Shown here piece after piece: positions 7,553 to 50,987 of a DNA stretch of 64,000 nt. A model generated the notes under the pieces. That model saw nothing but the letters and a program-made list of their open reading frames with translations. It searched no databases and had not been told where the DNA came from. The DNA lies in assembly GCF_040267705.1 (NCBI RefSeq), contig NZ_CP158374.1:2728001-2792000 (forward strand). Direction: 5' to 3'. Every line of letters starts with the position of its first letter. Positions within the stretch are counted from its first letter, which is position 1. The DNA is from Agromyces sp. G08B096 (GTDB lineage: Bacteria; Actinomycetota; Actinomycetes; Actinomycetales; Microbacteriaceae). A program made the position numbers and the translations under genes.

Positions 7553-8994
7553 GTATCCCCGCACCGGCCTCCGTCGACCGGCTGCTGCCGCCGAAGACGA
7601 GACGGAAACCCAGGATCGGCCTCGTCGCAGGCGGACTCGGCACGTACTGGCCGCAGTTCCCCGGCCTGTTGCCGCAGCTGCACGCCTCGGCGGCGTACGT
7701 GTCGGAGCGGTTCCAGGCGATGGACGCGGAGGTCACCGACGTCGGTTTCATCTCCGACGCCCAGGAGGGGGCCGCCGCGGCCGAGCAGCTGCGACGCGCC
7801 GACTGCGATCTCATCGTGCTCTTCCTGACGACCTATCTCACGAGCTCGATGGTGCTGCCCATCGCTCAGCGGGCGAACACCCCCGTGCTGGTGATCGACC
7901 TGCAGCCCACGGAGAAGATGGATCACGCCGCCTTCGACACCGGCGCCTGGCTCGCGTACTGCGGCCAGTGCCCGGTTCCGGAGGTGGGCAACGTCTTCCG
8001 GCGGGCCGGCATCCCCTTCCGCTCCGTCTCGGGCTGGCTCCGCCAGGAATCGGCCTGGGAGCGCATCGGTCAGTGGATCCGGGCGGCACACGTGCGGGCG
8101 GCGCTGCGACACGCTCGACACGGGTTGATGGGCCACCTGTACCCGGGCATGCTCGACGTCTCGACGGATCTCACCCTGCTTCCGGCCACGTTCGGTTCAC
8201 ACGTCGAGGTGCTCGAGTTCGACGACCTCCGGGTGCGGGTCGAGGAGGTGACCGACGAGCAGACCCGAGAACGGATGGCCCTCGCCCGCGAGATCTTCAC
8301 CCTCGACGACAGCGTCGTGGAGGAGGACTTCGCGTGGGGCGCGCGGGTCTCGGTGGGTCTGGACCGCCTCGTCGAGGAGTTCGAGCTGGACTCGCTGGCG
8401 TACTATCACCGCGGTCTCGCCGGCGAGCAGCACGAACGCCTCGGCGCGGGCATGATCCTCGGGGCCTCGCTGCTGACCGCCCGAGGCATCCCGGCGACCG
8501 GCGAGTTCGAACTGCGGACCACCGTCGCCCAGCTCGCCACGCAGGTCGTGGGGGCGGGCGGATCGTTCTGCGAGATCCAGGCGCTGAACTTCGAGGACGG
8601 CGTCGTCGAGATGGGCCACGACGGTCCCGCCCATCTGGCGGTCTCGAGTCGCGATCCGCTGCTGCGCGGTCTCGGCGTCTACCACGGCAAGCGCGGCTGG
8701 GGCGTCTCGGTGGAGTTCGACGTGCAGCACGGCCCAGTGACCCTCCTCGGACTCGGGCAGGACCGCGACGGCTCCCTGGTCTTCGTCGCCTCCGAGGGCA
8801 CCGTGGTGCCCGGCCCGCTGCTCGAGATCGGCAACACCACGAGCCGCGTCGACTTCGGACGCGATCCCGGCGAATGGGTCGACGCCTGGTCGGCGACCGG
8901 AGTCGGGCACCACTGGTCGCTGTCGGTCGGCGCCCGGGCCGCGGAGTACCGGGCGGCGGCATCGCTGCTCGGAATCGAGTTCCGGCAGGTCTGA
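7549..8994 (+). CDS. L-arabinose/L-fucose isomerase-family protein
   Basis: A 481-residue cytoplasmic protein. The N-terminal half has alternating strands typical of the sugar isomerase fold (RIGLVAGGLGTYWPQFPGLL, DCDLIVLFLTTYLTSS, NTPVLVIDLQP). The C-terminal half resembles AraA: GRGLAGEQHERLGAG-like text around 300, ATGEFELRTTVAQL, GGSFCEIQALNFEDGVVEMGHDGPAHLA and a late HHWSLSVG. The family converts aldoses to ketoses using Mn2+, with conserved Glu and His ligands; GHDGPAH and HHWS may carry the His ligands. It is shorter and more divergent than true AraA (about 500), so another aldose is likely. ATGA overlap with the porter gene fixes the start. A long hairpin follows the stop. Confidence 0.78.
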   Translation: MSIPAPASVDRLLPPKTRRKPRIGLVAGGLGTYWPQFPGLLPQLHASAAYVSERFQAMDAEVTDVGFISDAQEGAAAAEQLRRADCDLIVLFLTTYLTSSMVLPIAQRANTPVLVIDLQPTEKMDHAAFDTGAWLAYCGQCPVPEVGNVFRRAGIPFRSVSGWLRQESAWERIGQWIRAAHVRAALRHARHGLMGHLYPGMLDVSTDLTLLPATFGSHVEVLEFDDLRVRVEEVTDEQTRERMALAREIFTLDDSVVEEDFAWGARVSVGLDRLVEEFELDSLAYYHRGLAGEQHERLGAGMILGASLLTARGIPATGEFELRTTVAQLATQVVGAGGSFCEIQALNFEDGVVEMGHDGPAHLAVSSRDPLLRGLGVYHGKRGWGVSVEFDVQHGPVTLLGLGQDRDGSLVFVASEGTVVPGPLLEIGNTTSRVDFGRDPGEWVDAWSATGVGHHWSLSVGARAAEYRAAASLLGIEFRQV

Positions 8995-9023
8995 CCTCAG
9001 GCCCATCGAGCACTGCCAGCCGA

Positions 9024-9073
9024 CTGCAGCCGCCGGCTTCCCCGCCCTCGGGCGGCGGAGCCGGCGGCTGCAG
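9024..9073. terminator. Bidirectional hairpin terminator between convergent genes
   Basis: Perfect 15-base arms (9024-9038 and 9059-9073) enclose a second 6-base stem (CCGCCC 9042-9047 with GGGCGG 9050-9055). It lies in the 101-base gap between convergent stops at 8994 and 9096 and can serve both. There is no U-tract, which is common in GC-rich actinobacteria. Confidence 0.75.
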
Positions 9074-9095
9074 GCGTCGCGGTGCTGCCGGCCCG

Positions 9096-9779
9096 TCAGG
9101 CCGGTCGGAGCGCCGCGCGGGCGGCGACGGCACCAGCGGGGTCATCCGTCGTCAACCCGGCGAAGCCCTCGTCGGCCGCCCGGCGCACCGACGCCACGTC
9201 GTTGCACGGCCAGACGTAGACCGGCCGGCCGGCGATGACCGGTGCGGCCGCGACGTCCCAGTGCAGGTACAGCTGGTCGACGCCGAGCTCCTCGGCCAGG
9301 TCGGGCTTGCCCGGCTCGTTCCTGCCGCAGATGAGCCCCACCCGCCACGTGCGGTCGCCGGTGAGCGCTGGCGCGATCGCCTCGGGGAGGAAGCTCGTGA
9401 TGACGATCGCTCCCCCGCGGTCTCCGCGCTCGCGCACGGCGTCGAGCACGGCGGCCGTGGCCGCCGCGGCCTTCACCTCGATCTGGAATGCGGTGTCGGG
9501 GAACCGGTCGAGGACCTCGTCGAGCTGCGGCACCCGCTCGCCGAGGCCGGCGTCGAGGACGGCGATCTCGGCCCAGGTGTGCGCGGACACGGGACCGGAC
9601 CCGTCGGTGGTGCGATCGAGCGTCTCATCATGGATCACGACGAGATACCCGTCGACGGACAGGTGGACGTCGAGCTCGATCTCGTCGACGCCGGCGTCGA
9701 CCGCGGCCTGGAACGAGCGCATGGTGTTCTCGGGTGCCACCGCGAGCGCTCCGCGATGACCCGTGATCCGCAGCGTCAT
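9096..9779 (-). CDS. Glycerophosphodiester phosphodiesterase
   Basis: A 227-residue GDPD-family TIM barrel without a signal peptide. The catalytic pair and metal ligands are visible: HRG at 8-10, PENT at 16-19, DEIELDV at 32-38 and His50 in VVIHDETLDRTTDGSG. GDPDs hydrolyse glycerophosphodiesters to glycerol 3-phosphate and an alcohol. It is the last gene of the minus-strand operon that begins with the rhamnosidase at 19609, and overlaps the DeoR gene by 4 bases. The arrangement of binding protein, two permeases and GDPD recalls ugpBAECQ of enteric bacteria, so the likely substrate is an imported glycerophosphodiester. Confidence 0.92.
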   Translation of the reverse strand: MTLRITGHRGALAVAPENTMRSFQAAVDAGVDEIELDVHLSVDGYLVVIHDETLDRTTDGSGPVSAHTWAEIAVLDAGLGERVPQLDEVLDRFPDTAFQIEVKAAAATAAVLDAVRERGDRGGAIVITSFLPEAIAPALTGDRTWRVGLICGRNEPGKPDLAEELGVDQLYLHWDVAAAPVIAGRPVYVWPCNDVASVRRAADEGFAGLTTDDPAGAVAARAALRPA

Positions 9780-10561
9780 GCGGTCTGCCTCGCGGCGACG
9801 TGCACGTCGACGTTCTCGGCGATCCGCTCCACGACGTCCGCGGGTGCGGCATCGTCGATGATCACCCGGCCGAAGGCCGAGGTCGGCGCGAGCCGGTAGA
9901 GGGCGGTGCGCGCGAGCTTGCTCGCATCCATCAGCAGCACGGACAGCGTCGCGGCACTCATCATGGGCCGCTTCACCTGTACGATCGCCTGCTCCTGATG
10001 GAACGTCATCTCGGGCGTCATCGCCGAGGTGCTGAGGAAGGCGACATCCACGTTCAGCGCCGAGACGGCGTCTTCGGCGCCGACGCCGAGGAACGAGTCG
10101 TGGGTGCGCGAGTAGTCGCCGCCGAGCGCGATCAGCTGGATGTCCTGCTTGTCGTGGAGCAGATCGATCACGCGACGGAAGTTCGTGACCACCGTCAGCG
10201 GTCCGATCTGCGGGAGCAGCTCGGCCACGGAGTAGGCGGTCGTCGAGTCATCGAGCAGCACCGACATGCCGGGCTCGACGAGGGTGACGGCCTCGCGGGC
10301 GATGGCCTCCTTCGCCGTCGTGTTCACGCGCATCCGGAACTCGGAGCTCGATTCGAAGACGGTGGACGGCAGCGCGGAGACGCCGCCGTGGAACTTCCGC
10401 ACGAGGCCTCGGTCGACGAGCGCGTCGATATCGCGGTGGATCGTCATGAGCGACACGCCCGTCAGCGAAGCGAGCTCGGCACTCGAAGCCGTTCCCGCCT
10501 GCAGCACGTGCTCGAGCACACGGGTCAGGCGCTTGTCTCGGGGAGCTCTGCCGGCGGGCAT
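9776..10561 (-). CDS. DeoR-family transcriptional regulator
   Basis: A 261-residue regulator. Residues 13-60 form the DeoR winged helix (ELASLTGVSLMTIHRDIDAL followed by GLVRKFHGG). The remaining part is the sugar-phosphate sensor domain (VLLDDSTTAY, VVTNFRRV, IALGGDYSRTHDSFLG, DVAFLSTSAM, MDASKLARTALY). DeoR proteins usually repress sugar or polyol catabolism and respond to a phosphorylated intermediate; GlpR, which senses glycerol 3-phosphate, is in this family. As the penultimate gene of the operon it is the obvious local regulator. Direct repeats upstream of the rhamnosidase promoter (19714-19738) are candidate sites. Confidence 0.9.
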   Translation of the reverse strand: MPAGRAPRDKRLTRVLEHVLQAGTASSAELASLTGVSLMTIHRDIDALVDRGLVRKFHGGVSALPSTVFESSSEFRMRVNTTAKEAIAREAVTLVEPGMSVLLDDSTTAYSVAELLPQIGPLTVVTNFRRVIDLLHDKQDIQLIALGGDYSRTHDSFLGVGAEDAVSALNVDVAFLSTSAMTPEMTFHQEQAIVQVKRPMMSAATLSVLLMDASKLARTALYRLAPTSAFGRVIIDDAAPADVVERIAENVDVHVAARQTA

Positions 10562-10589
10562 GGCTTCATCCTCTCAGGTCGGAACACGG

Positions 10590-11969
10590 TCAGGCCGATG
10601 CGACGGCGATCTTTCCCCACGGCGACGTCGCGCCGGTCTCCGTCACGATGCGCACGAACATCTCGGGCAGCGTGCCTGTGCCGTACCGTGTGAGCGTCTG
10701 GCGGCAGCCGCCGCTCCCGTGCGACGTCAGCGCGCCGACGTCGAGGAGGTACCCGCTCGCCGAGGCCGAGGCGGGTCGGTCCGCGAGCGCTGCGAACGCG
10801 GCAGAGGAGAAGTAGTACGAGCCGGGGTCGCGGAGCGCGGCCAGCTGGGTGAGGCCGGAGGGCGGCATGCGGTGGCGCCCGCGCTGCTCGGTGAGGGGGT
10901 GCGGCTGCATCGGCTGGAGCTGCTGCCCGGTGAACGCGTCGGCGCCGAGGTCGGGGAACGCGTACACCTTCGATCGGCGACGGCCCTGCTCCCCCGTCAC
11001 CACACCGGCGAAGAGCGTCTTGCGCCCCGTGAGCTTGTCCTTGTGCAGGAAGATCGACTCGGGCTCACGGAAGTTCCCTCGGTACCCGCCCTCCGGGTCC
11101 TCTCCGAACACCCGGGTCACCCGGGTCTTGACCTGGCCGTCGGTGAAGGAGAACCGGGTGATCTCGCTCGGGTAGGTGGCCGAGTTGGTGTCGCCGGAGT
11201 ACCAGTACGCATCCGTGCCGTCGACGGCGAAGCCCTGCATGTGCACGAGGTCGCCCGGGATCTGGATCGTGACGCCGATCGGCGCGTCGACGCCCGCCAC
11301 GACGTCGTCGATGCGCCGCAGCTGGAGGCGCTGCCCCGCGGTGTCGCTGATCCGGAATCCGACGGTGCCGTTCTGCGGGTCGAGCACCGGCGTCACGTAC
11401 GACGTGGTGAAGGAGGACAGCGTCTCGATCTCGGGATGCGTCGACGGGACGGTCTCGCCCGGCAGGTACGGCAGCCGCACGAGCCGGTTGCCCGTGATGG
11501 TGTTGCCGGCGTCCACATGGTTCCAGTTCGTCCACACGTACGGCCGGCCGTCGATCCGCTGGATGCCGACGGTTGTGCCGTGCCCGGCGGAGGTGAGGAT
11601 CATGTGGTCGAGGAGCTGGCCGGTGTGGCTGAGCCGGCTGAGCGCGAACGACTCGGAGTTCCCGGTGGCCGGAGGGATCGCCTGCGTCGCCCAGATCTCG
11701 CCGGTGTCCTCGTCGACGCCGAACCATTGCAGCACCGTCAGCCGCGGGAGCTGGAGCAGGGTCTGGAACACCGGCCGCACGAGCGTGAAGTCGTAGTCGG
11801 CGGGATCGGCCCCCGCGATCGCGCGCACCGCGGATGCCGCGACGGGCGCGGTCGCCGCCGCCGCGGGTGCCGCGGCGGCCGGCGCGACGACCGACCCGGC
11901 GACGGTGCCGAGGCCGGCGAGCGCCGGGAGGGTGGTCAGGCCTATGAACTCTTTGCGGGTGAAGGACAT
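10590..11969 (-). CDS. Exported TagC-like beta-propeller protein
   Basis: A 459-residue protein. ATG 11969 has AAGGAG 7 bases upstream. The N-terminus reads TRKEFIGLTTLPALAGL and then an Ala/Pro-rich stretch, which looks like a Tat-type signal with an RK variant of the twin arginine. The body resembles the propeller found in teichoic-acid protein TagC and phage tail receptor-binding proteins: TVLQWFGVDEDTGEIWATQ, GHGTTVGIQRIDGRPYVWT and NFREPESIFLHKD. The biochemical role of that family is not settled; several members are tied to wall polymers. It sits between a metallophosphoesterase gene (85-base gap) and the DeoR gene (28-base gap) in the same operon. Confidence 0.65.
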   Translation of the reverse strand: MSFTRKEFIGLTTLPALAGLGTVAGSVVAPAAAAPAAAATAPVAASAVRAIAGADPADYDFTLVRPVFQTLLQLPRLTVLQWFGVDEDTGEIWATQAIPPATGNSESFALSRLSHTGQLLDHMILTSAGHGTTVGIQRIDGRPYVWTNWNHVDAGNTITGNRLVRLPYLPGETVPSTHPEIETLSSFTTSYVTPVLDPQNGTVGFRISDTAGQRLQLRRIDDVVAGVDAPIGVTIQIPGDLVHMQGFAVDGTDAYWYSGDTNSATYPSEITRFSFTDGQVKTRVTRVFGEDPEGGYRGNFREPESIFLHKDKLTGRKTLFAGVVTGEQGRRRSKVYAFPDLGADAFTGQQLQPMQPHPLTEQRGRHRMPPSGLTQLAALRDPGSYYFSSAAFAALADRPASASASGYLLDVGALTSHGSGGCRQTLTRYGTGTLPEMFVRIVTETGATSPWGKIAVASA

Positions 11970-12054
11970 GTCAGCTCCTTGCTCAGCAGTCGGACGGATC
12001 GGTTGGTGGAGCGGGATAGTGGATGAGCGGAAGCCGGCCGCGGTGCGTCGGCCC

Positions 12055-13608
12055 TCAGCGCTCGCGTGCCAGCGGATGGACGAGCGTGACGACGACGTTC
12101 CGGTCGGCGTCCGCGCCGAGTGCGCCCGGCCGGCCGGCGCCGCGCCAGAGCTCGTTGGCGGCGAGCTCGTGATGCAACCGGGCGAGCTCCGCGGGCGTAT
12201 CGAGACCCGGCCGCTCGCCGACGGCGGCGTGGTGCATCGTGGTCGTGATCCGGATGCTGCGCGGCAGTTCCTCGATCTCGATCTCCCGCACCTGGCAGGG
12301 CCAGTCGGCGATCGCGGCGGTGGTGATCTCGACGACGCCCGACCCGCCGGGGCGCGGGTGGATCCGCACCTGGTTGCCGTGGTGGTGGCCGTTGAGCCAT
12401 GCGACGGTGTTGCGGCGCCGCAGGAGGAGGTCGACGATCGCGTCCGGATCGGCGATCTCGTCGGCGCACATCCGGTAGTCGTTCGCGAGGAACCCGCTGC
12501 CGTGGTGCGTGACGAGCACGGCGAGCCGCCCGTCCTCGTCGGCCGCGGAGAGCGCATCGTCGACCCAGGCGAGTTGCTCGCGGGCGAGCATGCCGTCCCA
12601 CATCCCGCGGTGGTTGTTCGTGTCGAACGCCACCAGGCGGAACCGGTCGCCGAGATCGGCCACGTAGCGGCCGTGCCGTTCCGCGTCCGGCGACGACGCG
12701 AGCCCATGCCCGGCGACCGGACCGGCCCGGTCGTCGCGATGGGCGACGGCGAACTCCCTCGGGCCGAGCAGCGCCCGGGCCTCGTCCGCGGCGATGGTCG
12801 CGGCCGGGCCTGCGTAGACGGCGTGCGGTCCGGTCAGGTATTCGTCCAGTCCGGCGTGAGCGTGCGGATCGCCGGCGAGCGGTTTGCGCGCGCCCCGGGC
12901 GATGCCGTCGAAGTCGTCGCCGAGGCGGGCGGTGCCGAGCACCAGCACGTCGTGGTTCCCGCGCACGGCGACCCACGGCGTCTCGAGCCCGCCGCTCGCG
13001 TGGGTGGCCGCCGCCTCGGCGAGGAGCCCCGGGATCACCGGGAGTCCGAAGCGCTCGCTGTACGCGTTGCCCGGCCGCTCGGGCTGCCAGACCCGCTGCA
13101 CGGGCCACTCCGACGAGAGCGGACTCGCGTCCGGGTCGCCGAGCAGCGGGTCGACGCGCCCGCCGCGCATCGCGGCGAGGTAGCTGCGCACCTCGTTGCG
13201 TTGCGCGTTGTCGACCGCGTCGCCGGTCTGCACGACGAGGTCGACCCCGAGGGCGTCGAGCGTCTCGAGCGCCGCCGTCACCGCGCGGGTGGCGAGCAGC
13301 TCCTGCGGGCGGAACGCGTAGGGCACCGGGCCCGACCACCGCGCGGGATCGACGAAGTCGAGCCGCAGCGGCGACGCGACGTCGGCGAGGTGCAGATCGG
13401 TCAGGTGGCCGAGCCGCACCCGTGCGAGGGGTTCGGCCGCGTCGGGCCGGCCGCCCCGCGGCAGATGCGGTTCGCCTGGCCCTTCGGCCAACCGGCGGAA
13501 AGGCGCCTCGACGCCAGCGGCGAGCACCTCGCCGGGCACCAGCGTGCGCTGCACGGTGCTCGTCACGGGCGTCGCGGTCGACGCGAGCGACACCGGGCGG
13601 CGGGTCAT
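12055..13608 (-). CDS. Metallophosphoesterase, PPA1498 (TIGR03767)-like
   Basis: A 517-residue calcineurin-type phosphoesterase. All metal-site motifs are present: DLH at about 71-73, TGDAVDN, VRGNHD, THHGSG and GHHHGNQ. The long insert with separate halves and the opening RTLVPGEVLAAG...RLAEGPGEPH resemble the actinobacterial PPA1498 group. No convincing signal peptide is seen (MTRRPVSLAS has RR but a weak hydrophobic core), so location is uncertain. ATG 13608 overlaps the permease stop by 4 bases. In context it probably removes phosphate from, or cuts a phosphodiester in, the substrate taken up by the adjoining importer. Confidence 0.82.
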   Translation of the reverse strand: MTRRPVSLASTATPVTSTVQRTLVPGEVLAAGVEAPFRRLAEGPGEPHLPRGGRPDAAEPLARVRLGHLTDLHLADVASPLRLDFVDPARWSGPVPYAFRPQELLATRAVTAALETLDALGVDLVVQTGDAVDNAQRNEVRSYLAAMRGGRVDPLLGDPDASPLSSEWPVQRVWQPERPGNAYSERFGLPVIPGLLAEAAATHASGGLETPWVAVRGNHDVLVLGTARLGDDFDGIARGARKPLAGDPHAHAGLDEYLTGPHAVYAGPAATIAADEARALLGPREFAVAHRDDRAGPVAGHGLASSPDAERHGRYVADLGDRFRLVAFDTNNHRGMWDGMLAREQLAWVDDALSAADEDGRLAVLVTHHGSGFLANDYRMCADEIADPDAIVDLLLRRRNTVAWLNGHHHGNQVRIHPRPGGSGVVEITTAAIADWPCQVREIEIEELPRSIRITTTMHHAAVGERPGLDTPAELARLHHELAANELWRGAGRPGALGADADRNVVVTLVHPLARER

Positions 13609-14432
13609 CCCTTCAGCCCGCTCGCGAAGCCGTGGATGACGTAGCGCTGCAGCAGCAGGAACAGCACCAGCACGGGCAGCGACGCGAGGATGATGCCGGC
13701 GGCCACCAGCCCGTAGTCGGACGTGTACTCGTTCACGAAGGAGTACACCCGGACCGGGATGGTCTCGAACCCCGAGTTGCCGAGGTAGAGCAGCGGGGTG
13801 AAGAAGTCGTTCCACACCGACACGACGTTCAGGATGATCACGGTCCCCGTGACCGGGCGGAGCAACGGGAAGAGAACCCGCCAGAACGCCTGCCAGTGAT
13901 TGGCGCCGTCGATCAGCGCGGCACCCACGTAGTCGTCGGGCAGGGCGCGGACGAAACCCGTGTAGAGGAAGACGGTCAACGGCATGTGCACGCCCCAGTA
14001 GAAGAGGATGACGCCGAGGTGCGTGCCCGTGAGCTCGAGGACGACCATCGCCCGGTACAGCGGGATCATCGCGAGCTGGAACGGCAGGATGATGCCGGCG
14101 ACCATCGCCATGTACGCCCAATAGCTCATCCGGGTCGCTCGCCGGGCCAGCACGTACCCGGCGAGGGAGCCGAACAGCACGAGCCCGCCGACGCTCGCGA
14201 CCGTGATGATGAGGCTGTTGACCGTCGCCGGGATGAGCCTGGCCGACTCGATCGCGCGCCCGAAGTTGTCGAAGTTCAGCGTCGACGGCAGCCCGAGCGG
14301 ATTCGTGACGATCTCCGCCGCGTCCTTGAACCCCATCGTCAGGAGCGCGTACACCGGGAAGAGGAACGCGACGGCCGCCGCGATGAGGCCGATCTCCAGC
14401 AGCAGGGTGCGGAACGTGTAGCGCTTGGTCAT
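13605..14432 (-). CDS. Sugar-type ABC importer permease (MalG/UgpE type)
   Basis: A 275-residue inner-membrane permease with about six helices, starting EIGLIAAAVAFLFPVYALLTMGFKD. The EAA loop reads YVGAALIDGANHWQAFWRVLFPLL, the contact site for the ATPase. NVVSVWNDFFTPLLYL is typical of CUT1 second permeases. The start ATG 14432 overlaps the upstream permease stop by one base (TGATG). No nucleotide-binding subunit is encoded in the operon, so an ATPase shared between importers (MsiK style) must be supplied from elsewhere. Confidence 0.93.
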   Translation of the reverse strand: MTKRYTFRTLLLEIGLIAAAVAFLFPVYALLTMGFKDAAEIVTNPLGLPSTLNFDNFGRAIESARLIPATVNSLIITVASVGGLVLFGSLAGYVLARRATRMSYWAYMAMVAGIILPFQLAMIPLYRAMVVLELTGTHLGVILFYWGVHMPLTVFLYTGFVRALPDDYVGAALIDGANHWQAFWRVLFPLLRPVTGTVIILNVVSVWNDFFTPLLYLGNSGFETIPVRVYSFVNEYTSDYGLVAAGIILASLPVLVLFLLLQRYVIHGFASGLKG

Positions 14433-15391
14433 CAGTCGACCTCCCTGCGGCGCATGATGCGCAGCTGGGTGAACGCCACGATGGAGACGCCGATCGTGAG
14501 CAGGACGGCGATGGCGGCGCTGTAGCCGAAGTTGCCGTAGATGAAGGCCTCCTTGTAGATGATCGTCGAGAGCGTCTCGGTGGCGTAGCCCGGACCGCCG
14601 CCGGTCGTCGTGAGCACCTGGGTGAACAGCGTCAGCGCCCCCGTGAGCGAGAGCAGGACGTTGATCGTCATGGCAGGGGCCAGCTGCGGGATCGTGATGT
14701 GCCGGAAGCGCTGCATGGGCGTCGCCCCGTCGACCATGGCGGCTTCGTAGAGCTCCTCCGGGATGCCCGTGAGCCCGGCGAGGAAGATGACCATCGAGTA
14801 GCCCGCCGCCTGCCAGATCACGATGATCGCGATCGACCACAGGGCCATCTCCGGATCTCCGAGCCAGTCCTGCTGCAGCCAGTCGAGCCCGAGAGCGCCG
14901 AGCACCCCGTTGATGCCGGCGTCGGGTCGCGGGTTGTAGATGTACTTCCAGACGAACGAGATCATGACCGCGCTCACGACCATGGGAGCGAAGAAGATCG
15001 TGCGGAGCGCGAACCGGCTCTTCACCCGGCTGTGCACGCCGAGGGCCAGCAGCAGACCAATGACGTTCTGCACGATCACGATGACGACCGTCAGCAGCAG
15101 CGTGTTTCGGATGGAGCCGAGCGCCTGCTTGTCGCTGAACACGTCGATGAAGTTCTGGAACCAGACGATGTGCTCGATCTCGCCGAGGCCGGACCAGTCG
15201 GTGAACGCGACGCCCAGTCCGGTGAAGGTCGGCACCGCCACGATCGCGGCGAACATGAGGAACGCCGGCAGCGCGAACCACCAGGGCGGCGACGTGTGGA
15301 TGCGGGGCCGCCGCCGCCGGGGCGACGGCACCCGGGGTGCGGCGGCGACCTCGGGCGCCGCCGCACTCTCGAGCGTGGACGAGGACGTCAC
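14432..15391 (-). CDS. Sugar-type ABC importer permease (MalF/UgpA type)
   Basis: A 319-residue permease with an extended Ala/Pro/Arg cytoplasmic N-terminus (about residues 1-35), then about six helices beginning WWFALPAFLMFAAIVAVP. The EAA motif EELYEAAMVDGATPMQRFRHITIPQL-type loop (about 220-245) is intact, and TTGGGPGYATETLSTIIY matches first permeases of carbohydrate importers. It overlaps the binding-protein gene by 4 bases upstream and the second permease by 1 base downstream, so the three are made together. Confidence 0.93.
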   Translation of the reverse strand: MTSSSTLESAAAPEVAAAPRVPSPRRRRPRIHTSPPWWFALPAFLMFAAIVAVPTFTGLGVAFTDWSGLGEIEHIVWFQNFIDVFSDKQALGSIRNTLLLTVVIVIVQNVIGLLLALGVHSRVKSRFALRTIFFAPMVVSAVMISFVWKYIYNPRPDAGINGVLGALGLDWLQQDWLGDPEMALWSIAIIVIWQAAGYSMVIFLAGLTGIPEELYEAAMVDGATPMQRFRHITIPQLAPAMTINVLLSLTGALTLFTQVLTTTGGGPGYATETLSTIIYKEAFIYGNFGYSAAIAVLLTIGVSIVAFTQLRIMRRREVD

Positions 15392-16662
15392 TGCGCGAAG
15401 GCCTCGTCCATCTGGGCGAGCGCTCCCTCGGGCGTGGTCTGCCCGCCGAGCATCTCCTGGATGGCCGCAAACATGGCCGGCTGCACTTCGGCGTTCGGCC
15501 AGGTCTGGTCGGGGAACGGCGCCGTCTCGCCGGCGTCGAAGTACTCGGCGAACGGGGTCAGGAGCGGGCTCAGCTCGTCGGACGGGGCGAAGGGGATCGA
15601 GTTCATGGCGGTGGCCATCTCGACGATGTTCTCCTCTTCGCCGAGGAAGGCGATGAAGTCCTTCGCGAGCTCGGGGTCAGCGGCCTGCGTGGTCACGCCG
15701 AGTCCGACGACGGTGCCGCCGGGGATCCAGTTGCGCGCCTCGTCGTCGGTGGCCGGCAGCGGGAAGTAGCCGAGCTTCTCCCCCATCACGTCCTGATACC
15801 CCTCCAGCGTCGCCGAGACCATGACGGCCATCGCCGCGGTCCCGTCGCCGAGCGCCTGCACCATCTGGTCGCTCGTCGTCCCGTTCGGGTTCTCGTTGAA
15901 GAACCCGCGCGCCTGCCAGTCGGCGTAGGTCGAGAAGGCGTCGAGCCAGCCCGACTCGACGAAGGTCGTCTCGCCGTCGATCATCTGCTGGCCGAAGTCC
16001 GGGTCCTCGGAATAGACCATGCCCGGCACCAGGGCGTACGGGATCAGCTGGGTGATCCACGGGGTGTTCGTCCCGAGCGCCAGCGGTGTGACACCTGCGG
16101 CCTTCACCTGCTCGGCCACGGCCTCGAACTCGCTCATGGTGGTCGGCACCTCGAGGCCGAGCTGTTCGAAGAGCTCGGTGTTGTAGACGACGCCGAGGAC
16201 GCTCGCCCCCGGCGAGTACACGTAGACGCCGTCCTCGTAGGTGAACGCGCCCTGGAAGCCCTCGGGGACGGTCGAGGTCCACTCCTGGTCACTGAGGTCC
16301 TCGAGCATGCCCGCCTCGGCGAGCTGCGCCATCGACATGGCGCTGCCGTTGCCCGGGTACACCGCAACGATGTCGGGCGCGTTGCCGCCGGCGAGCTGGG
16401 TCCGGACGGAGGTCTGCAGCTCCTGGTTGGGGGCGAAGGAGGCCGTGACGGTGACCCCGGGGTTCGCCTCCTCGTATTCCTCGATGAGCGCCTCCAGCGC
16501 CGTCTGCTGACTGCCGGAGGCGATGATCGTGAGCGTGCGCTCGCCATCACCGGCTCCGGACGGCCCGTTGGTGCTGCAGGCCGTGAGCAGCAGTCCCGCG
16601 GCGGCCGTTGCGGCGAGCACGGTCGCGCGGCGATACCCGCGGCGAGAACGAGATTCGGACAT
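15388..16662 (-). CDS. Extracellular solute-binding lipoprotein (UgpB/MalE family)
   Basis: A 424-residue family 1 binding protein. The signal peptide ends in the lipobox LLTAC with Cys29, so it is a membrane-anchored lipoprotein. The fold is recognisable from TLTIIASGSQQTALEALIEE, DIVAVYPGN, VLGVVYNTELFEQLG and DFIAFLGEEENI. GAAAGGAA lies just upstream of ATG 16662. It sits 40 bases behind the rhamnosidase and overlaps the first permease by 4 bases. The operon contains a phosphodiesterase and a phosphoesterase, so the ligand may be a phospho- or glycerophospho-glycoside; the sequence alone does not show it. Confidence 0.92.
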   Translation of the reverse strand: MSESRSRRGYRRATVLAATAAAGLLLTACSTNGPSGAGDGERTLTIIASGSQQTALEALIEEYEEANPGVTVTASFAPNQELQTSVRTQLAGGNAPDIVAVYPGNGSAMSMAQLAEAGMLEDLSDQEWTSTVPEGFQGAFTYEDGVYVYSPGASVLGVVYNTELFEQLGLEVPTTMSEFEAVAEQVKAAGVTPLALGTNTPWITQLIPYALVPGMVYSEDPDFGQQMIDGETTFVESGWLDAFSTYADWQARGFFNENPNGTTSDQMVQALGDGTAAMAVMVSATLEGYQDVMGEKLGYFPLPATDDEARNWIPGGTVVGLGVTTQAADPELAKDFIAFLGEEENIVEMATAMNSIPFAPSDELSPLLTPFAEYFDAGETAPFPDQTWPNAEVQPAMFAAIQEMLGGQTTPEGALAQMDEAFAQ

Positions 16663-16702
16663 GGGGGTTCCTTTCGATCGGCCGATGACCCGCGGTTCGG
16701 GT

Positions 16703-19609
16703 TCAGGCGGTGGGGATGCGTTGGACGGAGGGGCGGAGACCGGGTGCGAACTCGAGGTCGACGCCCGCCGGGGCGACGACCTCGACGTCGAGGCCGCCGT
16801 CGTCGGCTCGCGCCCACGAGACGGACAGCTCGCCGCCCGCAGGCAGCGGGACCCGGCCGCGCGCCCAGTCGAGGTCGCCGGCGAACGGGTCGATGCGCAC
16901 CCGCGCGAATCCGGGCTCCAGTGGCTGGATGCCGAGCACGCGCTCCGGCAGGAATGAGGCGGGGGCCGCCGACCAGGCGTGGCAATGGGAGCGGGTCACG
17001 CGGTCGACGTTCGACATGGTCGAGCCTGGATAGGTCTCCCAGCAGGTGACCGCGCCCTGCTCGAGCATCATCCCGTACTTCTCCCGGAGGTCGGCGACCG
17101 CCAGGTCGGTGCGGCCGCGGCCCGCGAGGACGTCGTAGAGGAAGATCGCGAGCCACGGGCTCGCGATCCGCACCCACCCGGCCGGGGGCTCGACGACGAG
17201 GTCCTGGAGCCGGTCGAGCCGGTCCGCATCGCCGGCGCCCGCGAGGAGCGCGAACAGCTGCGTCTGCTGGCTGAACCCGTTCGACCGGGTGCCGTCGACC
17301 GCGATGGAGTCGAGGTACGCGCCCGCGCCGTCGTCCCAGAGTTCCCGCACGACGATCGCCCGCTGCTCCTCCGCGCGCGCCGTCAGTCGCTCGGCCGATC
17401 CGGCGTCGCCGAGCGCGGCGGCCAGGGCCGCCGCGGCGTCCCAGGCCATGACGAAGAGCATGTTCTGGTGTCCCACGACGCCGCTGTTGTCGTGGTCGAG
17501 TTTGGCCCAGTCGAGGAAGTTCCAGGCGTCGATGCTGAGCAGTCCGCGCTCGTCGCGGTACGCGTCGAAGGCGTCCAGCGTGCGGGTGACCGCTGGCAGC
17601 AGCTCCGCGGCGAAGGCGGCGTCGCCGGTGCGGAACCAGTGGTCGCGTACCGCGATGACCCAGAGGAACGTCCAGTTCGGGATGACGTTGGTCCAGCCCG
17701 ACGGCACCTGTGAGGTGAGCAGCGGGGTCTGGGCCTCCGAGCCGGCGACCAGTCGGAGGCAGCGCTCGATCAGCGCATCGGCGTCGAACATCGCCGATGC
17801 GAATCGGGAGGAGGAGTAGCTGTCGCCCACCCAGAACGCCTGCTCGTAGATGGGACAGTCCACGAAGGTGTCCTCCATGCAGGTGATGAGCGTCCGCCGC
17901 GAGAGCTCCCAGGCATCGACGAGCAGCCGGTCGCTGGCCTCGAACCGGCCGGTCCGCGACACCGGGTAGTGGGCGGCGACGACGCCGATCTCGTGCACGA
18001 GCACTGGGGCAGAGGCATCCCGGACGGTCAGCTGCACGTACCGCGCGCCGTGCCGCACCTCGCTGCGGTAGCGCTGGCGACCCTCGCGAGTCGTGTAGCG
18101 GAGCGTGTTGTCGCAGCCGATCGTGTCCTCGCGCCATCCTTCGTGGAGGTACTCGAACCCGTAGACGTCGACGACGGCTCCCTCCGGCGCGGTGAGCTCG
18201 AACTCGTAGTAGCCGGAGACCTCCTCGCCGAGGTCGAACACGACCTCGGCGTCGAGGCCCTCGCGATGCGGCAGCCACGCGGCCTGCGCCGAGCAGAGGG
18301 CGCTCAGCGAGCGGGGCGGCAGGACCGTCGAGCGCGACCTCGGATGCACGTTGTCGCCGTACACGCTCGCGGGGCTGACGTGGGCGGCGGCGATGGCGCG
18401 CACCGGCTCCTCACCCGGACCGGGGGTCGCTCCGCCCGACACGAGCTCGCTCGCACGCGCTCGGGAACCCGCCGGCAACGGCGGAGCCTCGACGGGAGGA
18501 TGCGCCAGCGCGCGAGCCGGATCCGCCTCGGCGACGGCGACGGTCCACGCGACGAAGGGGGTCTCGGACTGGTGGGCGCTCGGGGCCCGGACGACCAGGT
18601 TGCCTCCGTCGGCGCTCAGCTGGAGGTTCAGCGGGTAGCCGTGGTCGGTGAGACTGGTCTCGATGAGCAGCAGATGCGTCCCGGCGTCGAGGTCGAGCCG
18701 TGTGGAGCGGCCGAGGGCCGGGTCGTGGTCGAGGTCGTCGCGCTCGCTCCACCGACCATCGACGCCGATAGCGGTGACTCGGACGTGCGAGCGGGCGAAG
18801 GGCAGGGAGATCTCGAGCGTCGCCGCCGCGTCGAGCTGAATCTCGGTGGCCACGTAGCCCGCATAGGCGACGACGTCGGCATGGTGCTCGGTCTCCGGGA
18901 CGAAGTGGTTGCGTGCGTCGATCGTGGCACCGAAGTCGTGCCGCGTCGTGAACGCGAGGCTTTCGACGGAGGCGGGCCGCACCGTCCGCTCCTCGAGCGC
19001 AGGGATGTCGCGCGGAGCCAGGGCGCCCCAGGGCGCCGTCCCCTCGGGCCCGAGCACCTCGACGGGCGTCCACCCGGCGCCGGGGCGGAAGTCCGCCTCG
19101 TGCCATCCGGGCTCCCAGCGACCGTCGACCACCTCGGTGAAGGCGAGCTGGGGCGACATGCGACTGGAGCGCGGCTCCTGGCCGCGGTGTGCCGTCGAGA
19201 GCCAGCGGCCGTCGCTCACGAGGAGCGCTCCGGCTCCGTCCGCTTCGACGGCGAGCAGGAGTCCTCCGCGCGATCGGCGGTGCGAGAACGTCGGCACACC
19301 GAAGTGCCGCACGAGGACGGCGACCGTGTTAGGGCCGTCCTCGACGAGCAGGTGCCCGATCTCCCAGGTGTCGACGCGGTACTGTCCGACGTACCCGCGG
19401 ACGGGTCCGTCGCCGACGCGGTGTCCGTTCACCCACACGGTGTACCGCGAGTCGCCGGTGATCCGGAGGCGGGCCGTCGGGTCCGAGCCGATGAACTCGG
19501 CACGGAAGCAGCGCCACGCGTTGCGCGGGCTCTCCTCGTCGGCATGCCAGATCCATCGTGCGGTCGCGGGGAACAGGTCCCCGGACCGGTGAGCGACGGG
19601 CGATTCCAC
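16703..19609 (-). CDS. GH78-type alpha-L-rhamnosidase
   Basis: A 968-residue enzyme. N-terminal beta domains (ARWIWHADEESPRNAWRCFR, then RYTVWVNGHRVGDGPVRG) precede an (alpha/alpha)6 barrel. The catalytic region reads EDTFVDCPIYEQAFWVGDS (about 590), the YEQ variant of the GH78 DCPQRDE..GW.GD signature, and WETYPGSTMSNVDRVTRSHC follows near 880. The end LGIQPLEPGFARVRIDPF and a C-terminal sandwich are typical. No signal peptide is seen. I chose GTG 19609 because AAAGAGGTAG lies just upstream; a reading from 19675 adds 22 residues without support. As first gene of the operon it should release L-rhamnose from the imported or lysed substrate. Confidence 0.85.
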   Translation of the reverse strand: MESPVAHRSGDLFPATARWIWHADEESPRNAWRCFRAEFIGSDPTARLRITGDSRYTVWVNGHRVGDGPVRGYVGQYRVDTWEIGHLLVEDGPNTVAVLVRHFGVPTFSHRRSRGGLLLAVEADGAGALLVSDGRWLSTAHRGQEPRSSRMSPQLAFTEVVDGRWEPGWHEADFRPGAGWTPVEVLGPEGTAPWGALAPRDIPALEERTVRPASVESLAFTTRHDFGATIDARNHFVPETEHHADVVAYAGYVATEIQLDAAATLEISLPFARSHVRVTAIGVDGRWSERDDLDHDPALGRSTRLDLDAGTHLLLIETSLTDHGYPLNLQLSADGGNLVVRAPSAHQSETPFVAWTVAVAEADPARALAHPPVEAPPLPAGSRARASELVSGGATPGPGEEPVRAIAAAHVSPASVYGDNVHPRSRSTVLPPRSLSALCSAQAAWLPHREGLDAEVVFDLGEEVSGYYEFELTAPEGAVVDVYGFEYLHEGWREDTIGCDNTLRYTTREGRQRYRSEVRHGARYVQLTVRDASAPVLVHEIGVVAAHYPVSRTGRFEASDRLLVDAWELSRRTLITCMEDTFVDCPIYEQAFWVGDSYSSSRFASAMFDADALIERCLRLVAGSEAQTPLLTSQVPSGWTNVIPNWTFLWVIAVRDHWFRTGDAAFAAELLPAVTRTLDAFDAYRDERGLLSIDAWNFLDWAKLDHDNSGVVGHQNMLFVMAWDAAAALAAALGDAGSAERLTARAEEQRAIVVRELWDDGAGAYLDSIAVDGTRSNGFSQQTQLFALLAGAGDADRLDRLQDLVVEPPAGWVRIASPWLAIFLYDVLAGRGRTDLAVADLREKYGMMLEQGAVTCWETYPGSTMSNVDRVTRSHCHAWSAAPASFLPERVLGIQPLEPGFARVRIDPFAGDLDWARGRVPLPAGGELSVSWARADDGGLDVEVVAPAGVDLEFAPGLRPSVQRIPTA

Positions 19610-19679
19610 GGAAGCTACCTCTTTCTGCCAGACGGCAGCGGGCCGGAACCGCTCCGGGCCGCACTGACCGAGCATGATG

Positions 19680-19738
19680 AGACTAACTGAACGGGGAGAA
19701 AAAGCACAAGGAATTCGTGATGAACATCTTTTGTGATG
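19680..19738 (-). promoter_or_regulatory. Promoter and direct repeats upstream of the rhamnosidase operon
   Basis: On the minus strand TTGTGC (19709-19704) and TAGTCT (19685-19680) are 18 bases apart. Upstream lie two copies of CATCACRAA (19738-19730 and 19722-19714) with a 16-base period, in an unusually AT-rich stretch. DeoR-family proteins often bind such direct repeats, so this is the likely site for the operon's own DeoR regulator. Confidence 0.55.
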
Positions 19739-19750
19739 TGATTTCTACCG

Positions 19751-20665
19751 TTAATTCGACGTTTCGCCAGCGACGCCGAGGCGGGCCAGGACGGCAGCGT
19801 CGAGCGGCGCGACGACGTCGGCGAGCTCCGCGGCGATCCCCGGCGCCGCCGCGGTGACCAGCCGGCTCCCGTCCGCCGCCGGCTCCGTCGCCGAGACCGC
19901 GGCACCGGCCTCCTCGGCGATCAGCACCCCCGCGGCGTAGTCCCACGGATTCAGCCACCGTTCGACGTAGCCGTCGAGACGCCCCGTCGCCACCGCGCAC
20001 AGGTCCAGTGCCGCTGCGCCGATCCGCCGCAGATCGCGCACGCGCGGCAGGAGTTCGGCCGTCATGGCGCCCTGCGCACGCCGTCGCTCGGGCAGGTACG
20101 AGAAGCCGGTGCCGACGAGCGCGAGGGAGAGCTCTCCCGCCGCACTCGCCCGGACGGGACGACCGTCGAGGAAGGCTCCACCGCCGCGGGACGCGCTCCA
20201 GATCTCACCGGTCGCCGGATTCGCGACGGCACCGGCGAGGAGCCCGCCGTCGAAGGGGTCGGATCCCGACATCACCGCGATGGACACCGCATAGGCCGGG
20301 ATGCCGTACAGGAAGTTCACCGTGCCGTCGATGGGGTCCACCACCCAGGTCAGCCCGCTGGCACCCGCGCTCGAGCCCGACTCCTCGCCGATGAAGCCGT
20401 CGTCCGGCCTGAGCTCTGCGAGCGCGGCGCGGATGAACGCCTCCGACGCCTGATCGACCGCGGTCACGACATCGACGAGCGAGGACTTCGTCGCAGCGAC
20501 CGACACACCCGCCTGGCGCTCATCGGCCACGAGCCGGCTCGCCCGTCGCGCGAGATCGGCGGCGAGCGCTCGCAACTCCGGGGGGCCTCCGGCCGCCGTC
20601 ATCCCGTCCATCGCCGTCACTGCTTGTCCGTCCATCGTCGCCTCTCGTTCACTCGTCACCGTCAC
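19751..20665 (-). CDS. Inositol monophosphatase-family phosphatase
   Basis: A 304-residue Mg2+-dependent phosphatase. Metal-site motifs are present: GEES (about 94-97), WVVDPIDGTVNF (about 106-117) and WDYAAGVLIAEEAGA (about 240-254). The family dephosphorylates inositol phosphates, histidinol phosphate, PAP or sugar phosphates; the substrate here is unknown. GTG 20665 overlaps the DUF47 stop by 4 bases; ATG 20635, behind GAGAGGCGACG, is an equally reasonable start. It closes a three-gene unit with a PiT-like transporter, so released phosphate handling is the likely theme. Confidence 0.88.
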   Translation of the reverse strand: MTVTSEREATMDGQAVTAMDGMTAAGGPPELRALAADLARRASRLVADERQAGVSVAATKSSLVDVVTAVDQASEAFIRAALAELRPDDGFIGEESGSSAGASGLTWVVDPIDGTVNFLYGIPAYAVSIAVMSGSDPFDGGLLAGAVANPATGEIWSASRGGGAFLDGRPVRASAAGELSLALVGTGFSYLPERRRAQGAMTAELLPRVRDLRRIGAAALDLCAVATGRLDGYVERWLNPWDYAAGVLIAEEAGAAVSATEPAADGSRLVTAAAPGIAAELADVVAPLDAAVLARLGVAGETSN

Positions 20666-21288
20666 GCCCCTCGCTTCACGGCACCGTCGGCGATGGCGTC
20701 GGCCGCCTCGCCGAGCCGCAGCCCGATTCCGTCGACCCGGCGCAGGAGCTCCCGCCGCTCGAGCGCCCGCGCATCGCTGCCCGCACCCTCGAGGAGTTCG
20801 GCCATCGCCCGCTGGAACCGGCGCCGGACGTCGTTCTTCTTCGCCTGCAGCGCGGCCTCGCGCAGGCGCGTGGTATCTGCACCCAGCTCCCCGACGGCCT
20901 CGCCGAGACGCGGGACGGCCGCGGCGACGCCGGCGAAGACCGTCGCGAGCACGGGGTCGGGCGGCATCCGGTAGAGGTCGTACTCGCGGACGAGGTCGCG
21001 CACCGTGTCGAGGACGTCGTCGATGGACCGCGACAGACGGAACAAGTCCTCCCGGTCGATCGGCGTGATGAATGCCCGCGAGATCGCTTCGACGACCGCA
21101 CCGCGCGCATCGTCGCCGTCGTGTTCGATGCGGCGCAGCCGGCGCCTCGCGGCCTCGGGCTCGAGCTCGCCCCGCAGCATCCGGGCGGTGACCTCGACCC
21201 CCCGATCGAGCGCGGCGACCTGCTCGGAGAGCCGTCGGACGAGCTCGCGGTCGGTCCGAGACCCGAGCGCGGAAGGCAGGAGCCTCAG
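20662..21288 (-). CDS. DUF47/PhoU-like accessory protein of the PiT transporter
   Basis: About 208 residues, all helical, matching the DUF47 family that pairs with PiT phosphate transporters: RRIEHDGDDARGAVVEAISRAFITPIDREDLFRLSRSIDD (about 58-97, quoted motifs IEHDGD and FITPIDREDLF), then DVLDTVRDLVREYDLY. These residues are metal- and phosphate-linked in the family. The start is uncertain. The conserved opening LRLLPSALG lies right after the transporter stop, where only CTG 21288 is available, overlapping that stop as CTGA. The nearest upstream ATG (21390) would add 34 Arg/Gly-rich residues inside the transporter gene. Confidence 0.8.
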   Translation of the reverse strand: MRLLPSALGSRTDRELVRRLSEQVAALDRGVEVTARMLRGELEPEAARRRLRRIEHDGDDARGAVVEAISRAFITPIDREDLFRLSRSIDDVLDTVRDLVREYDLYRMPPDPVLATVFAGVAAAVPRLGEAVGELGADTTRLREAALQAKKNDVRRRFQRAMAELLEGAGSDARALERRELLRRVDGIGLRLGEAADAIADGAVKRGA

Positions 21289-22322
21289 ACCGCGACGGCG
21301 CCCACGATCAGCCCGGCCGCGAACCCGGCCAGCAGCGTCGCCGGCACCGTCGCCACCCAGGCGTTGCCGAGTCTGGCGGCGTTCTCCCATCTGATCCTCC
21401 TCATTCCCGATGACATCCCGATGCCGATGAGCGAACCGCTCACGACCTGCGACATCCCGGCCGGCACCCCGAGCGCCGACCCGCCGAACATGACGGCCGC
21501 GGTGGCCAGCTCGCTCGTCGCCGCCGCGTCGGGGCGCACCGCCAGCACCCCGCGGTTGACGGTGGCCGCCATCCGGCGGACGCCGAACGCGGCACCGGCG
21601 GCGAACACCACGCCGGCGACCGCGAGCTGCAGGGGCACGATCTCGGCCCGCTCGCCGACCGTGTCCATCGCCACGGCCATGACGGCGAGGATCTTCTGGC
21701 CGTCCGCGGCGCCGAAGGCCATCGCGAGCGCGGCGAACGCGAGCACATGGACGCCACCGGCGACGTCGCGCACGGCCCAGCGCGTCCGCCACGGGCGCAG
21801 GCCCAGCCGGAGCAGCAGTGCGGCGATCACGCCGAGCAGGGGCGCGAGCAGGAGCCCGGCGGCCACCTCGGCGAGGCGCGGCCACGACACGTCGGTGCCC
21901 GCGCCGAGCCCGACGCCGGTCATCGCCGCGAGCAGGGCGAGGGTCATGCTCGTGGGAAGGCCTCGCCACGACAGCACGGCCGCGACGAGCATCGCCGACA
22001 CCACGGCCGCGACGAGGAGCCACCGCCCCGCCTCGCCGTCGAGCGTCACGAGCTCGGCGGCGATCGTCGTCGCCACCCCGGTTCCGAGCAGGACCGGGGC
22101 GATGGCGACGGCCGCGCCGAGTGCGAGGACGGCCAGCCAGACCGGCGTGTTCGACGCGGTCAGTCCGATGGAGACCAGCACGCTTCCCGCGTTGCTGCCG
22201 TAGACGAACGCGAAGAGCGACGCGACGAGGAAGAGCGCCAGACCCGCGCTCACGGCCGGGCCCCGACGTCGCCCGGGGCGCTTCCGCGCTCGCTGCTTCG
22301 ATGCATCCGGGGATACTAACAT
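21285..22322 (-). CDS. PiT-family (inorganic phosphate transporter) membrane protein, divergent
   Basis: A 345-residue membrane protein with about ten hydrophobic helices in two halves. The halves carry PiT-like repeats: GSNAGSVLVSIGL (42-54) and GAADGQKILAVM (204-215), where true PiT proteins have GxND in both. The first copy keeps Asn and loses Asp; the second keeps Asp and loses Asn. GGSALGVPAGMSQVVSGSLIGIGM near 280-305 is also PiT-like. The DUF47 gene overlaps its end, the classic PiT pairing. Inorganic phosphate uptake is the best guess, but the altered sites leave room for another anion. Transcription starts in the short AT-rich gap shared with the dehydrogenase gene. Confidence 0.8.
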   Translation of the reverse strand: MLVSPDASKQRARKRPGRRRGPAVSAGLALFLVASLFAFVYGSNAGSVLVSIGLTASNTPVWLAVLALGAAVAIAPVLLGTGVATTIAAELVTLDGEAGRWLLVAAVVSAMLVAAVLSWRGLPTSMTLALLAAMTGVGLGAGTDVSWPRLAEVAAGLLLAPLLGVIAALLLRLGLRPWRTRWAVRDVAGGVHVLAFAALAMAFGAADGQKILAVMAVAMDTVGERAEIVPLQLAVAGVVFAAGAAFGVRRMAATVNRGVLAVRPDAAATSELATAAVMFGGSALGVPAGMSQVVSGSLIGIGMSSGMRRIRWENAARLGNAWVATVPATLLAGFAAGLIVGAVAV

Positions 22323-22395: not shown

Positions 22396-23448
22396 ATGGT
22401 CGACATCCTCATCGCGGGCGACAACTTCATCCTCCCGAGCCTGTTCCGCGACGCGATCCTCGCGCACGCGACGCGCGCGGGTGTGAGCGACGACCTGCGG
22501 TTCCGGGAGCTCACGCTGCCGTGGCCGCAGGTCCCGTTCGGGCCCGTCGACGGCGTCGACGAGGCCAGCGGCTCCGTCGAAGAACTGATCGACGCGTTGG
22601 ACGGCGTCGACGCCGCAGTCACCCAGCTGGCACCGTTCAGCCGATCGGTCATCGAGGCCAGCCCCGCGCTGCGATTCATCGGCATCAGCCGAGGGGGCCC
22701 GGTCAACTGCGACCTCGACGCGGCGAGCGCAGCGGGTGTCGCGGTGTCGTTCGCTCCGGGCCGCAACGCGCGCGCCGCCGCCGAGTACGCCGTGGGCCTG
22801 ATCCTCGCGGCCACGCGCCACCTCACCGCCGCGCATACCGAGCTCGCCCGCGGCGTCTGGCGCGGCGACTACTACACATACGAGAACGCCGGGATCGAGC
22901 TCTCCGGCTCCACGGTCGGCCTCATCGGCTACGGCGCGATCGGCCGGCTCGTCGGCCGGATCCTGCTCGCGTTCGGCTCGCGCGTCCTCGTCCACGACCC
23001 GTACGCCGCCGTCGACGACCTCTACGCCGACGGCGTGGAGCCGGCGAGCCTCGACGACCTCCTGGCGGCGAGCGACATCGTGAGCCTGCACGCCCGTCTG
23101 ACCCCGGAGACGACGCTGCTGCTCGACGAGGCGGCGCTCAGACGGCTTCGCCCCGGCGCGGTCGTCGTCAACAGCGCGCGCGGCGGACTGCTCGACTACG
23201 GGGCGCTCACCCGCCTGCTCGCCGACGGACACCTGGGAGCCGCCGCGCTCGACGTCTACGACGTGGAGCCGCCCTCCCCCGACTCCGAGCTCCTGTCGCT
23301 GCCGAACGTGGTGCTCTCACCGCACCTGGCAGGCGCCAGCCGGTCGACGGCCCGGCGCGGGGCATCCATCGTCGCGGAGGAGCTCGTGCGCCACCTCACC
23401 GGCGCGCCGCTCGCGCACCGCGCGAACGCCGAGGTGTCGGTCTCGTGA
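22396..23448 (+). CDS. D-2-hydroxyacid dehydrogenase-family NAD(P) oxidoreductase
   Basis: A 350-residue cytoplasmic enzyme. The Rossmann site GLIGYGAIGRLVGRI lies at about 174-188. The catalytic Arg is in NSARGGLLD, the Glu in DVYDVEPP, and the His in LSPHLAGAS. The start ATG 22396 follows GAGAAGGG and begins the first strand directly (MVDILIAGDNF); ATG 22354 would add 14 unsupported residues. GTGA overlap with the next gene begins a four-gene cotranscribed unit with two FGGY kinases and a histidine phosphatase. The family reduces 2-oxo acids or oxidises 2-hydroxy acids; a phosphorylated sugar-acid substrate is possible given the kinases. Confidence 0.88.
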   Translation: MVDILIAGDNFILPSLFRDAILAHATRAGVSDDLRFRELTLPWPQVPFGPVDGVDEASGSVEELIDALDGVDAAVTQLAPFSRSVIEASPALRFIGISRGGPVNCDLDAASAAGVAVSFAPGRNARAAAEYAVGLILAATRHLTAAHTELARGVWRGDYYTYENAGIELSGSTVGLIGYGAIGRLVGRILLAFGSRVLVHDPYAAVDDLYADGVEPASLDDLLAASDIVSLHARLTPETTLLLDEAALRRLRPGAVVVNSARGGLLDYGALTRLLADGHLGAAALDVYDVEPPSPDSELLSLPNVVLSPHLAGASRSTARRGASIVAEELVRHLTGAPLAHRANAEVSVS

Positions 23449-50890: not shown

Positions 50891-50915
50891 CCCGCCTCCA
50901 CGAGGCATCCTGATT

Positions 50916-50956: not shown

Positions 50957-50987
50957 CCCACCCCTTCTCGACGGAGGTTCACCCACG

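Follow-up and report, generated by a model that had tools for sequence, protein, structure and literature searches.

A rhamnoside-utilization locus of Agromyces sp. G08B096 with a possible extension to a phosphoester-carrying substrate

Organization of the locus

The 64,000-nucleotide stretch of Agromyces sp. G08B096 analyzed here, which we call the window (NZ_CP158374.1, 2,728,001 to 2,792,000; all coordinates below are positions within it), contains a group of minus-strand genes in which a rhamnosidase and an importer accompany phosphoesterases and a phosphate transporter. An original prediction, made from the sequence alone, had proposed that the genes between 9096 and 22322 allow the cell to feed on a rhamnosylated phosphodiester polymer. 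These genes, and the hairpin that follows them, are listed below.

21285 to 22322, minus strand: PiT-family phosphate transporter (PF01384, 108 bits, over the cut-off), adjoining DUF47
20662 to about 21285, minus strand: DUF47/PhoU-like protein (PF01865, over the cut-off)
19751 to 20665, minus strand: inositol-monophosphatase-family phosphatase (IMP; PF00459, 209 bits)
16703 to 19675 (or start at 19609), minus strand: GH78 alpha-L-rhamnosidase of the Bacillus sp. GL1 RhaB type (PF17389, 167 bits)
15388 to 16662, minus strand: solute-binding protein (SBP), a lipoprotein, of a carbohydrate ABC importer (PF01547, 121 bits)
14432 to 15391, minus strand: ABC permease 1 (PF00528, 79 bits)
13605 to 14432, minus strand: ABC permease 2 (NCBIfam model GlcU, 149 bits, against 69 for UgpE)
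12055 to 13608, minus strand: metallophosphoesterase (MPE), TIGR03767-like
10590 to 11969, minus strand: exported five-bladed propeller with a tower-type region, similar to TagC and to phage receptor-binding proteins (RBP; PF21311, 168 bits against a cut-off of 23.7), with a TAT-like signal
9776 to 10561, minus strand: DeoR-family regulator (PF00455, 137 bits)
9096 to 9779, minus strand: GDPD (PF03009, 111 bits, over the cut-off)
8995 to 9095, no strand: hairpin (-75.5 kcal/mol, z = -5.2) between convergent genes

Domain matches place every gene named in the original prediction at the position and on the strand given there, and inspection finds the active sites of GDPD, MPE, IMP and GH78 with their motifs intact. 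The operon runs from 19675 to 9096 in the order GH78, SBP, permease, permease, MPE, propeller, DeoR, GDPD. Four-base overlaps join SBP to permease 1, permease 2 to MPE and DeoR to GDPD, the two permease genes overlap by one base, and the largest intergenic gap is 85 bp; this tight spacing agrees with the single operon that had been predicted. The PiT, DUF47 and IMP genes (22322 to 19751) do lie upstream of GH78 in the same direction, but probably as a transcription unit of their own, because an AT-rich gap of 75–141 bp, depending on the start of GH78, separates IMP from GH78. The hairpin at 8995–9095 is a probable mark of the operon end. A comparison of the GH78 promoter with those of PiT and of the divergent hydroxyacid dehydrogenase gene (see below) revealed nothing beyond weak similarity that could be a shared operator.

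Uptake and hydrolysis of rhamnosides

The similarity of the GH78 protein to the structure of RhaB (PDB 2okx) extends over its whole length (residues 39–975, E=4e-219). The acidic residues D606, E611, D618 and E880, which we take to be equivalent to the catalytic residues of RhaB, are present, and no signal peptide was seen. A second candidate rhamnosidase, also devoid of a signal peptide, lies outside the bounds of the original prediction:

2089 to 6108, minus strand: GH106-family alpha-L-rhamnosidase (PF17132, 57 bits against a cut-off of 29, partial match)

The AlphaFold model of the SBP (pLDDT 82.6) has chito-, raffinose- and xylo-oligosaccharide binders as nearest solved folds; UgpB is absent from its 50 best structural matches, and the profile search gave no match to a UgpB model either. 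Together with the GlcU-like permease, this makes the importer look like an oligosaccharide importer and not one of the UgpB type. A ugp-type reading of the operon was rejected on these grounds, and the analogy with ugp that had been part of the original prediction fails as far as the importer is concerned. Since no ATPase gene lies between 9096 and 22322, the importer presumably uses a shared ATPase.

A complete operon for the L-rhamnose pathway (rha) is found elsewhere in the same genome (C1:3306-3318 kb), so that a route for released rhamnose exists. With an intact GH78, a nearby GH106 and an oligosaccharide-type importer, the import of rhamnosides followed by their hydrolysis inside the cell is well supported by sequence comparison, and the proposed removal of rhamnose stands.

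A rhamnosidase/importer unit that recurs in actinomycetes

The SBP of the window and that of a Nonomuraea locus (49% identity) served as the two queries of a scan of species genomes, which returned 80 loci; leaving out five distant ones and adding the Nonomuraea locus gave the set of 76 (L046 and L049–L125) considered here. We define the unit by homologous SBP, permease and DeoR genes together with GH106 and/or GH78, a description that also applies to the window. Across the 76 loci the identity to the window proteins is 45–51% for the SBP, 57–64% for the permeases (58–64% for permease 2) and about 47–58% for DeoR. GH106 occurs in 56 units, DeoR in 55, an aldose isomerase in 21, and a GH78 in 26, which is of a second type that differs from the RhaB type of the window.

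Gene families of these units are found in the window from 2089 to 26976, so that the segment 9096–22322, judged by its gene families, forms the central part of a longer unit that recurs. The original prediction had missed GH106, a LacI regulator, the isomerase-like gene and a divergent kinase/dehydrogenase operon (22396–26976), which belong to the same system in relatives. The plus-strand genes of these flanks, with a transporter gene among them, are:

1080 to 2099, plus strand: LacI regulator
6320 to 7552, plus strand: major facilitator superfamily transporter (PF07690, 100 bits), between GH106 and the isomerase
7549 to 8994, plus strand: AraA/sulfoquinovose-isomerase-like aldose isomerase, with weak similarity to sulfoquinovose and L-arabinose isomerases
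22396 to 23448, plus strand: D-2-hydroxyacid dehydrogenase (PF02826, 177 bits), first gene of the divergent operon, in 12 of the 76 units
23445 to 24884, plus strand: FGGY kinase 1, xylulokinase-like, in 11 of the 76 units
24881 to 26371, plus strand: FGGY kinase 2, closest to the sugar kinases PDB 5htr/5htn, in 21 of the 76 units
26368 to 26976, plus strand: histidine phosphatase, PGM-like, in 17 of the 76 units

The isomerase has no Pfam match; homologs with 71–91% identity exist in other actinomycetes, and 6 of 32 other genomes of the genus encode it. In three relatives from the genus the gene lies within the rha operon, and in two others it is found with LacI, GH106, an importer and GH78, adjoining the rha operon. 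Given the complete rha operon elsewhere in the genome, a different sugar or a polyol is the probable substrate of the kinase/dehydrogenase operon.

Many Kribbella loci carry dihydroxyacetone kinase genes (DhaK/DhaL) and a GH43 gene near the importer; these may be only conserved flanks. Further along the window, the segment 27662–32696 has genes for a DUF2264 protein (PF10022, 355 bits), for another hydroxyacid dehydrogenase and for a large protein without a Pfam match, heparinase-like by eye; the segment is perhaps another polysaccharide locus. Two more groups of sugar ABC importer genes, with large proteins adjoining, are located at 49625–54867 and 59847–63956.

Association with phosphoester cleavage

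A member of the PhoD phosphodiesterase/alkaline phosphatase family, unrelated to the GDPD and MPE of the window, is encoded 0–733 bp from a core gene, at varying positions, in 36 of the 76 units, often accompanied by a secreted F5/8C (carbohydrate-binding) protein. Twelve such genomes, 115 Mb in all, have 80 PhoD matches, a density at which about 1.5% of the loci would have such a neighbor by chance. Since the 76 loci are not phylogenetically independent, we give more weight to the count of genus groups than to the raw fraction: units with PhoD span 6 of 10 groups, against about 1 expected. In Bacillus subtilis, PhoD and the glycerophosphodiesterase GlpQ are implicated in the degradation of wall teichoic acid (PMC7086022).

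A second association comes from another genome of the genus, G735, in which genes for a GH32-like glycosidase, an importer, IMP (50% identity to the IMP of the window), GDPD, a divergent PiT, DUF47 and LacI are clustered (L223, G735:C11:279000-298000). This combination was probably assembled separately from that of the window, because its importer and its glycosidase belong to other subfamilies. The PiT of the window is itself a second, divergent copy, with 30% identity to the other PiT of the genome and 35% to its nearest relative among 60 genomes of the genus; only 2 of these 60, the genome studied here and G735, have two PiT matches. The G735 cluster, a single case, supports a functional tie of PiT, DUF47 and IMP with GDPD and a glycoside importer; the relatives of the G735 importer in Curtobacterium and Ensifer are without IMP, GDPD and PiT. 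PhoD in 6 of the 10 genus groups and the G735 cluster support the view that the cleavage of phosphoesters and the import of glycosides are repeatedly linked.

Within the operon, GDPD has intact HRG, E-x-D, H and E-x-K motifs and no signal peptide was seen. The score of MPE with TIGR03767 (247 bits) is below the cut-off of 330.75, which makes it a relative and not a member of that family by the model; PF00149 matches it at 21.8 against a cut-off of 21.5, and the metal-ligand motifs DLH, GDxxDN, GNHD, THH and GHHH are present. MPE has no visible signal peptide and is probably cytoplasmic, unlike several of its relatives, which carry TAT-type signals. Relatives of MPE occur in 24 of 300 genomes of the family, in some cases with an adjoining importer (L234, L237), and none of them is beside a GDPD or propeller gene.

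Residues 58–442 of the propeller match the platform and tower of the RBP structures of Staphylococcus phages (9m7x, 5efv; E about 1e-31). A structure prediction made without an alignment (pLDDT 35.5) was not used. With PF21311 a Streptomyces TagC-like protein scores 57 bits, against 168 for the propeller, whose greater closeness to phage RBPs suggests that it was captured from a phage. No relative was found by a single-sequence search of genome contigs and viral contigs. Neither the propeller nor GH78 has a relative in the 299 other genomes sampled from the family, the propeller is absent from 395 other genomes of the phylum as well, and PF21311 matches only the Agromyces genome itself among 396 phylum genomes; in the genus to which G322 belongs (Streptomyces by context), 59 of 199 genomes have it. 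On a Streptomyces plasmid, a TagC-like propeller gene lies beside an importer and GDPD. The receptor of phage phi11, whose RBP has the propeller fold, is the GlcNAc of wall teichoic acid, which was modelled to fit a pocket of the protein (PMC4901313).

Proposed function and alternative explanations

The reading that we favor, with a probability of about 50%, is that of a rhamnoside-utilization locus extended for a phosphoester-carrying substrate, most likely a phosphate-linked glycan of the cell envelope, such as a teichoic-acid-like one. The exported propeller would hold or recognize the polymer at the surface, and the importer would take up rhamnosylated fragments, from which GH78 and GH106 would strip rhamnose for the canonical rha pathway. 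GDPD and MPE would open the phosphodiester and IMP would take off the remaining phosphate, while the isomerase, the FGGY kinases and the dehydrogenase would process the other sugar or polyol and PiT and DUF47 would balance the phosphate released. In this scheme, the two associations that recur give moderate support to a phosphoester in the substrate. That the polymer is teichoic-acid-like is plausible, by analogy with the phage relatives of the propeller and with the action of B. subtilis PhoD and GlpQ on wall teichoic acid.

Several observations weigh against this interpretation. A profile search of the 76 homologous units finds no GDPD, MPE, propeller, IMP, PiT or DUF47: in these other actinobacteria the core of importer, rhamnosidase and DeoR recurs without them, so that, by this measure, the exact gene set is local to the Agromyces strain. 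The original prediction had itself named such an absence of phosphoesterase, propeller and GDPD as what would refute it. The family and phylum samples likewise contain the exact set in one genome only. The nearest solved relatives of the SBP bind plain oligosaccharides. None of 38 Streptomyces-type loci has GDPD or an importer near the TagC-like gene, so that the plasmid is an isolated case. The operon encodes no extracellular depolymerase, and the genome has no PhoD, so that the unit of the window is without that partner. Overall, the rhamnose part of the predicted polymer is upheld; its phosphodiester part is indirectly favored by PhoD in 36 units, the G735 cluster and the Streptomyces plasmid, and disfavored by the absences in the 76 units and the 38 loci and by the oligosaccharide-type SBP.

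It is possible that this is an ordinary locus for rhamnosides or plant polysaccharides (rhamnogalacturonan, a gellan-like polysaccharide, glycosides), in which the phosphoesterases, the propeller and the PiT unit are co-directional local passengers. The RhaB type of the GH78 and the fold of the SBP would fit such a substrate, as would the GH43 gene often seen near Kribbella units; the absence of the phosphate-related genes from the 76 units points the same way, and relatives from the genus have GH78, GH106 and an importer beside the rha operon without them. However, MPE, propeller, DeoR and GDPD are inside the operon, with ends that overlap or nearly touch; PhoD beside the unit in six genus groups and the independent union of glycosidase, importer, GDPD, IMP and PiT in G735 also speak for the extended locus.

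It seems unlikely that the operon recycles wall polymers made by the strain itself that contain rhamnose and phosphate, the exported propeller binding the wall while the enzymes salvage the fragments that turnover releases. Cytoplasmic hydrolases and an importer would suit the recovery of fragments, and the propeller resembles phage receptors for wall polymers, but one would expect a housekeeping function to be conserved, and the propeller is found in 0 of 299 other family genomes, while 6 of 32 other genomes of the genus have the isomerase; a regulator of the sugar type rather points to a nutrient as inducer. Still less probable as substrate are small phosphodiesters of the lipid head-group kind, for instance glycosylated glycerophosphoinositol, from which GDPD would yield inositol phosphate and IMP inositol while PiT balances phosphate: GDPD and IMP do co-occur in the window and in G735, but they are at opposite ends of the gene set of the window, enzymes of the IMP family accept a variety of sugar phosphates (here the HisN-like score is similar to the SuhB-like one), and inositol catabolic genes were not seen in the locus.

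To return to the extended locus, it may well be of a known, actinomycete-wide rhamnoside-utilization type, the phosphoester part being an extension in the Agromyces strain. More tentatively, the loci could together represent a widespread and so far undescribed actinomycete system for rhamnosylated phosphodiester glycans. The phosphodiester would then be the task of PhoD outside the cell (Kribbella, Nonomuraea, Actinomadura, Streptomyces) or, in the Agromyces strain, of GDPD and MPE in the cytoplasm together with a captured wall-binding propeller of the phage type, and the rhamnose that of GH78 and GH106 inside the cell. No description of the gene set was found in the literature covered, which omits most subscription journals. 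Dead Gram-positive biomass is presumably rich in wall teichoic acids and in phosphate-linked glycans related to them, and few dedicated systems for feeding on them are known to us. If this proposal is correct, the unit with PhoD or GDPD provides testable genes for the way bacteria recycle each other's walls, and the propeller is a case in which metabolism has taken over the receptor-binding fold of a phage as a capture protein.

Comparison with known systems

Like the ugp operon, the operon of the window combines a cytoplasmic GDPD (UgpQ in ugp) with an importer that consists of a binding protein and permeases and falls into the same broad superfamily. It differs from ugp in that the importer is of the oligosaccharide type (GlcU 149 against UgpE 69 bits; SBP near RafE and chito-oligosaccharide binders), in that rhamnosidases, an exported propeller and DeoR are present, and in that it has no gene for a UgpC-type ATPase. 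The adjacent PiT and DUF47 genes recall the PiT–DUF47 phosphate transport pair. In the window this pair is a divergent second copy; IMP comes after it, and the glycoside operon lies downstream.

MsmEFG-type loci for rhamnosides or oligosaccharides with GH78 or GH106 resemble the window in that the importer has no ATPase gene of its own, the rhamnosidases are cytoplasmic and the regulator is of the sugar type; the window adds MPE, GDPD, the propeller and the adjacent PiT, DUF47 and IMP genes, whereas its relatives have PhoD instead. With the degradation of teichoic acid by GlpQ and PhoD in B. subtilis (PMC7086022), the likeness is one of enzyme families, since the GDPD of the window and the PhoD of its relatives belong to the same families; unlike that system, the window has a sugar-type regulator, an importer and a cytoplasmic GDPD.

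Last, the propeller shares with phi11-type RBP and TagC-like proteins (PF21311; PMC4901313) the five-bladed propeller and the tower, at about 28% identity over 377 residues. The TagC-like protein of Streptomyces consists of the propeller alone and has a far lower score with that family (57 against 168 bits), and the phage proteins have a coiled-coil stem, which the protein of the window does without, while it carries an export signal and is encoded in a metabolic operon.

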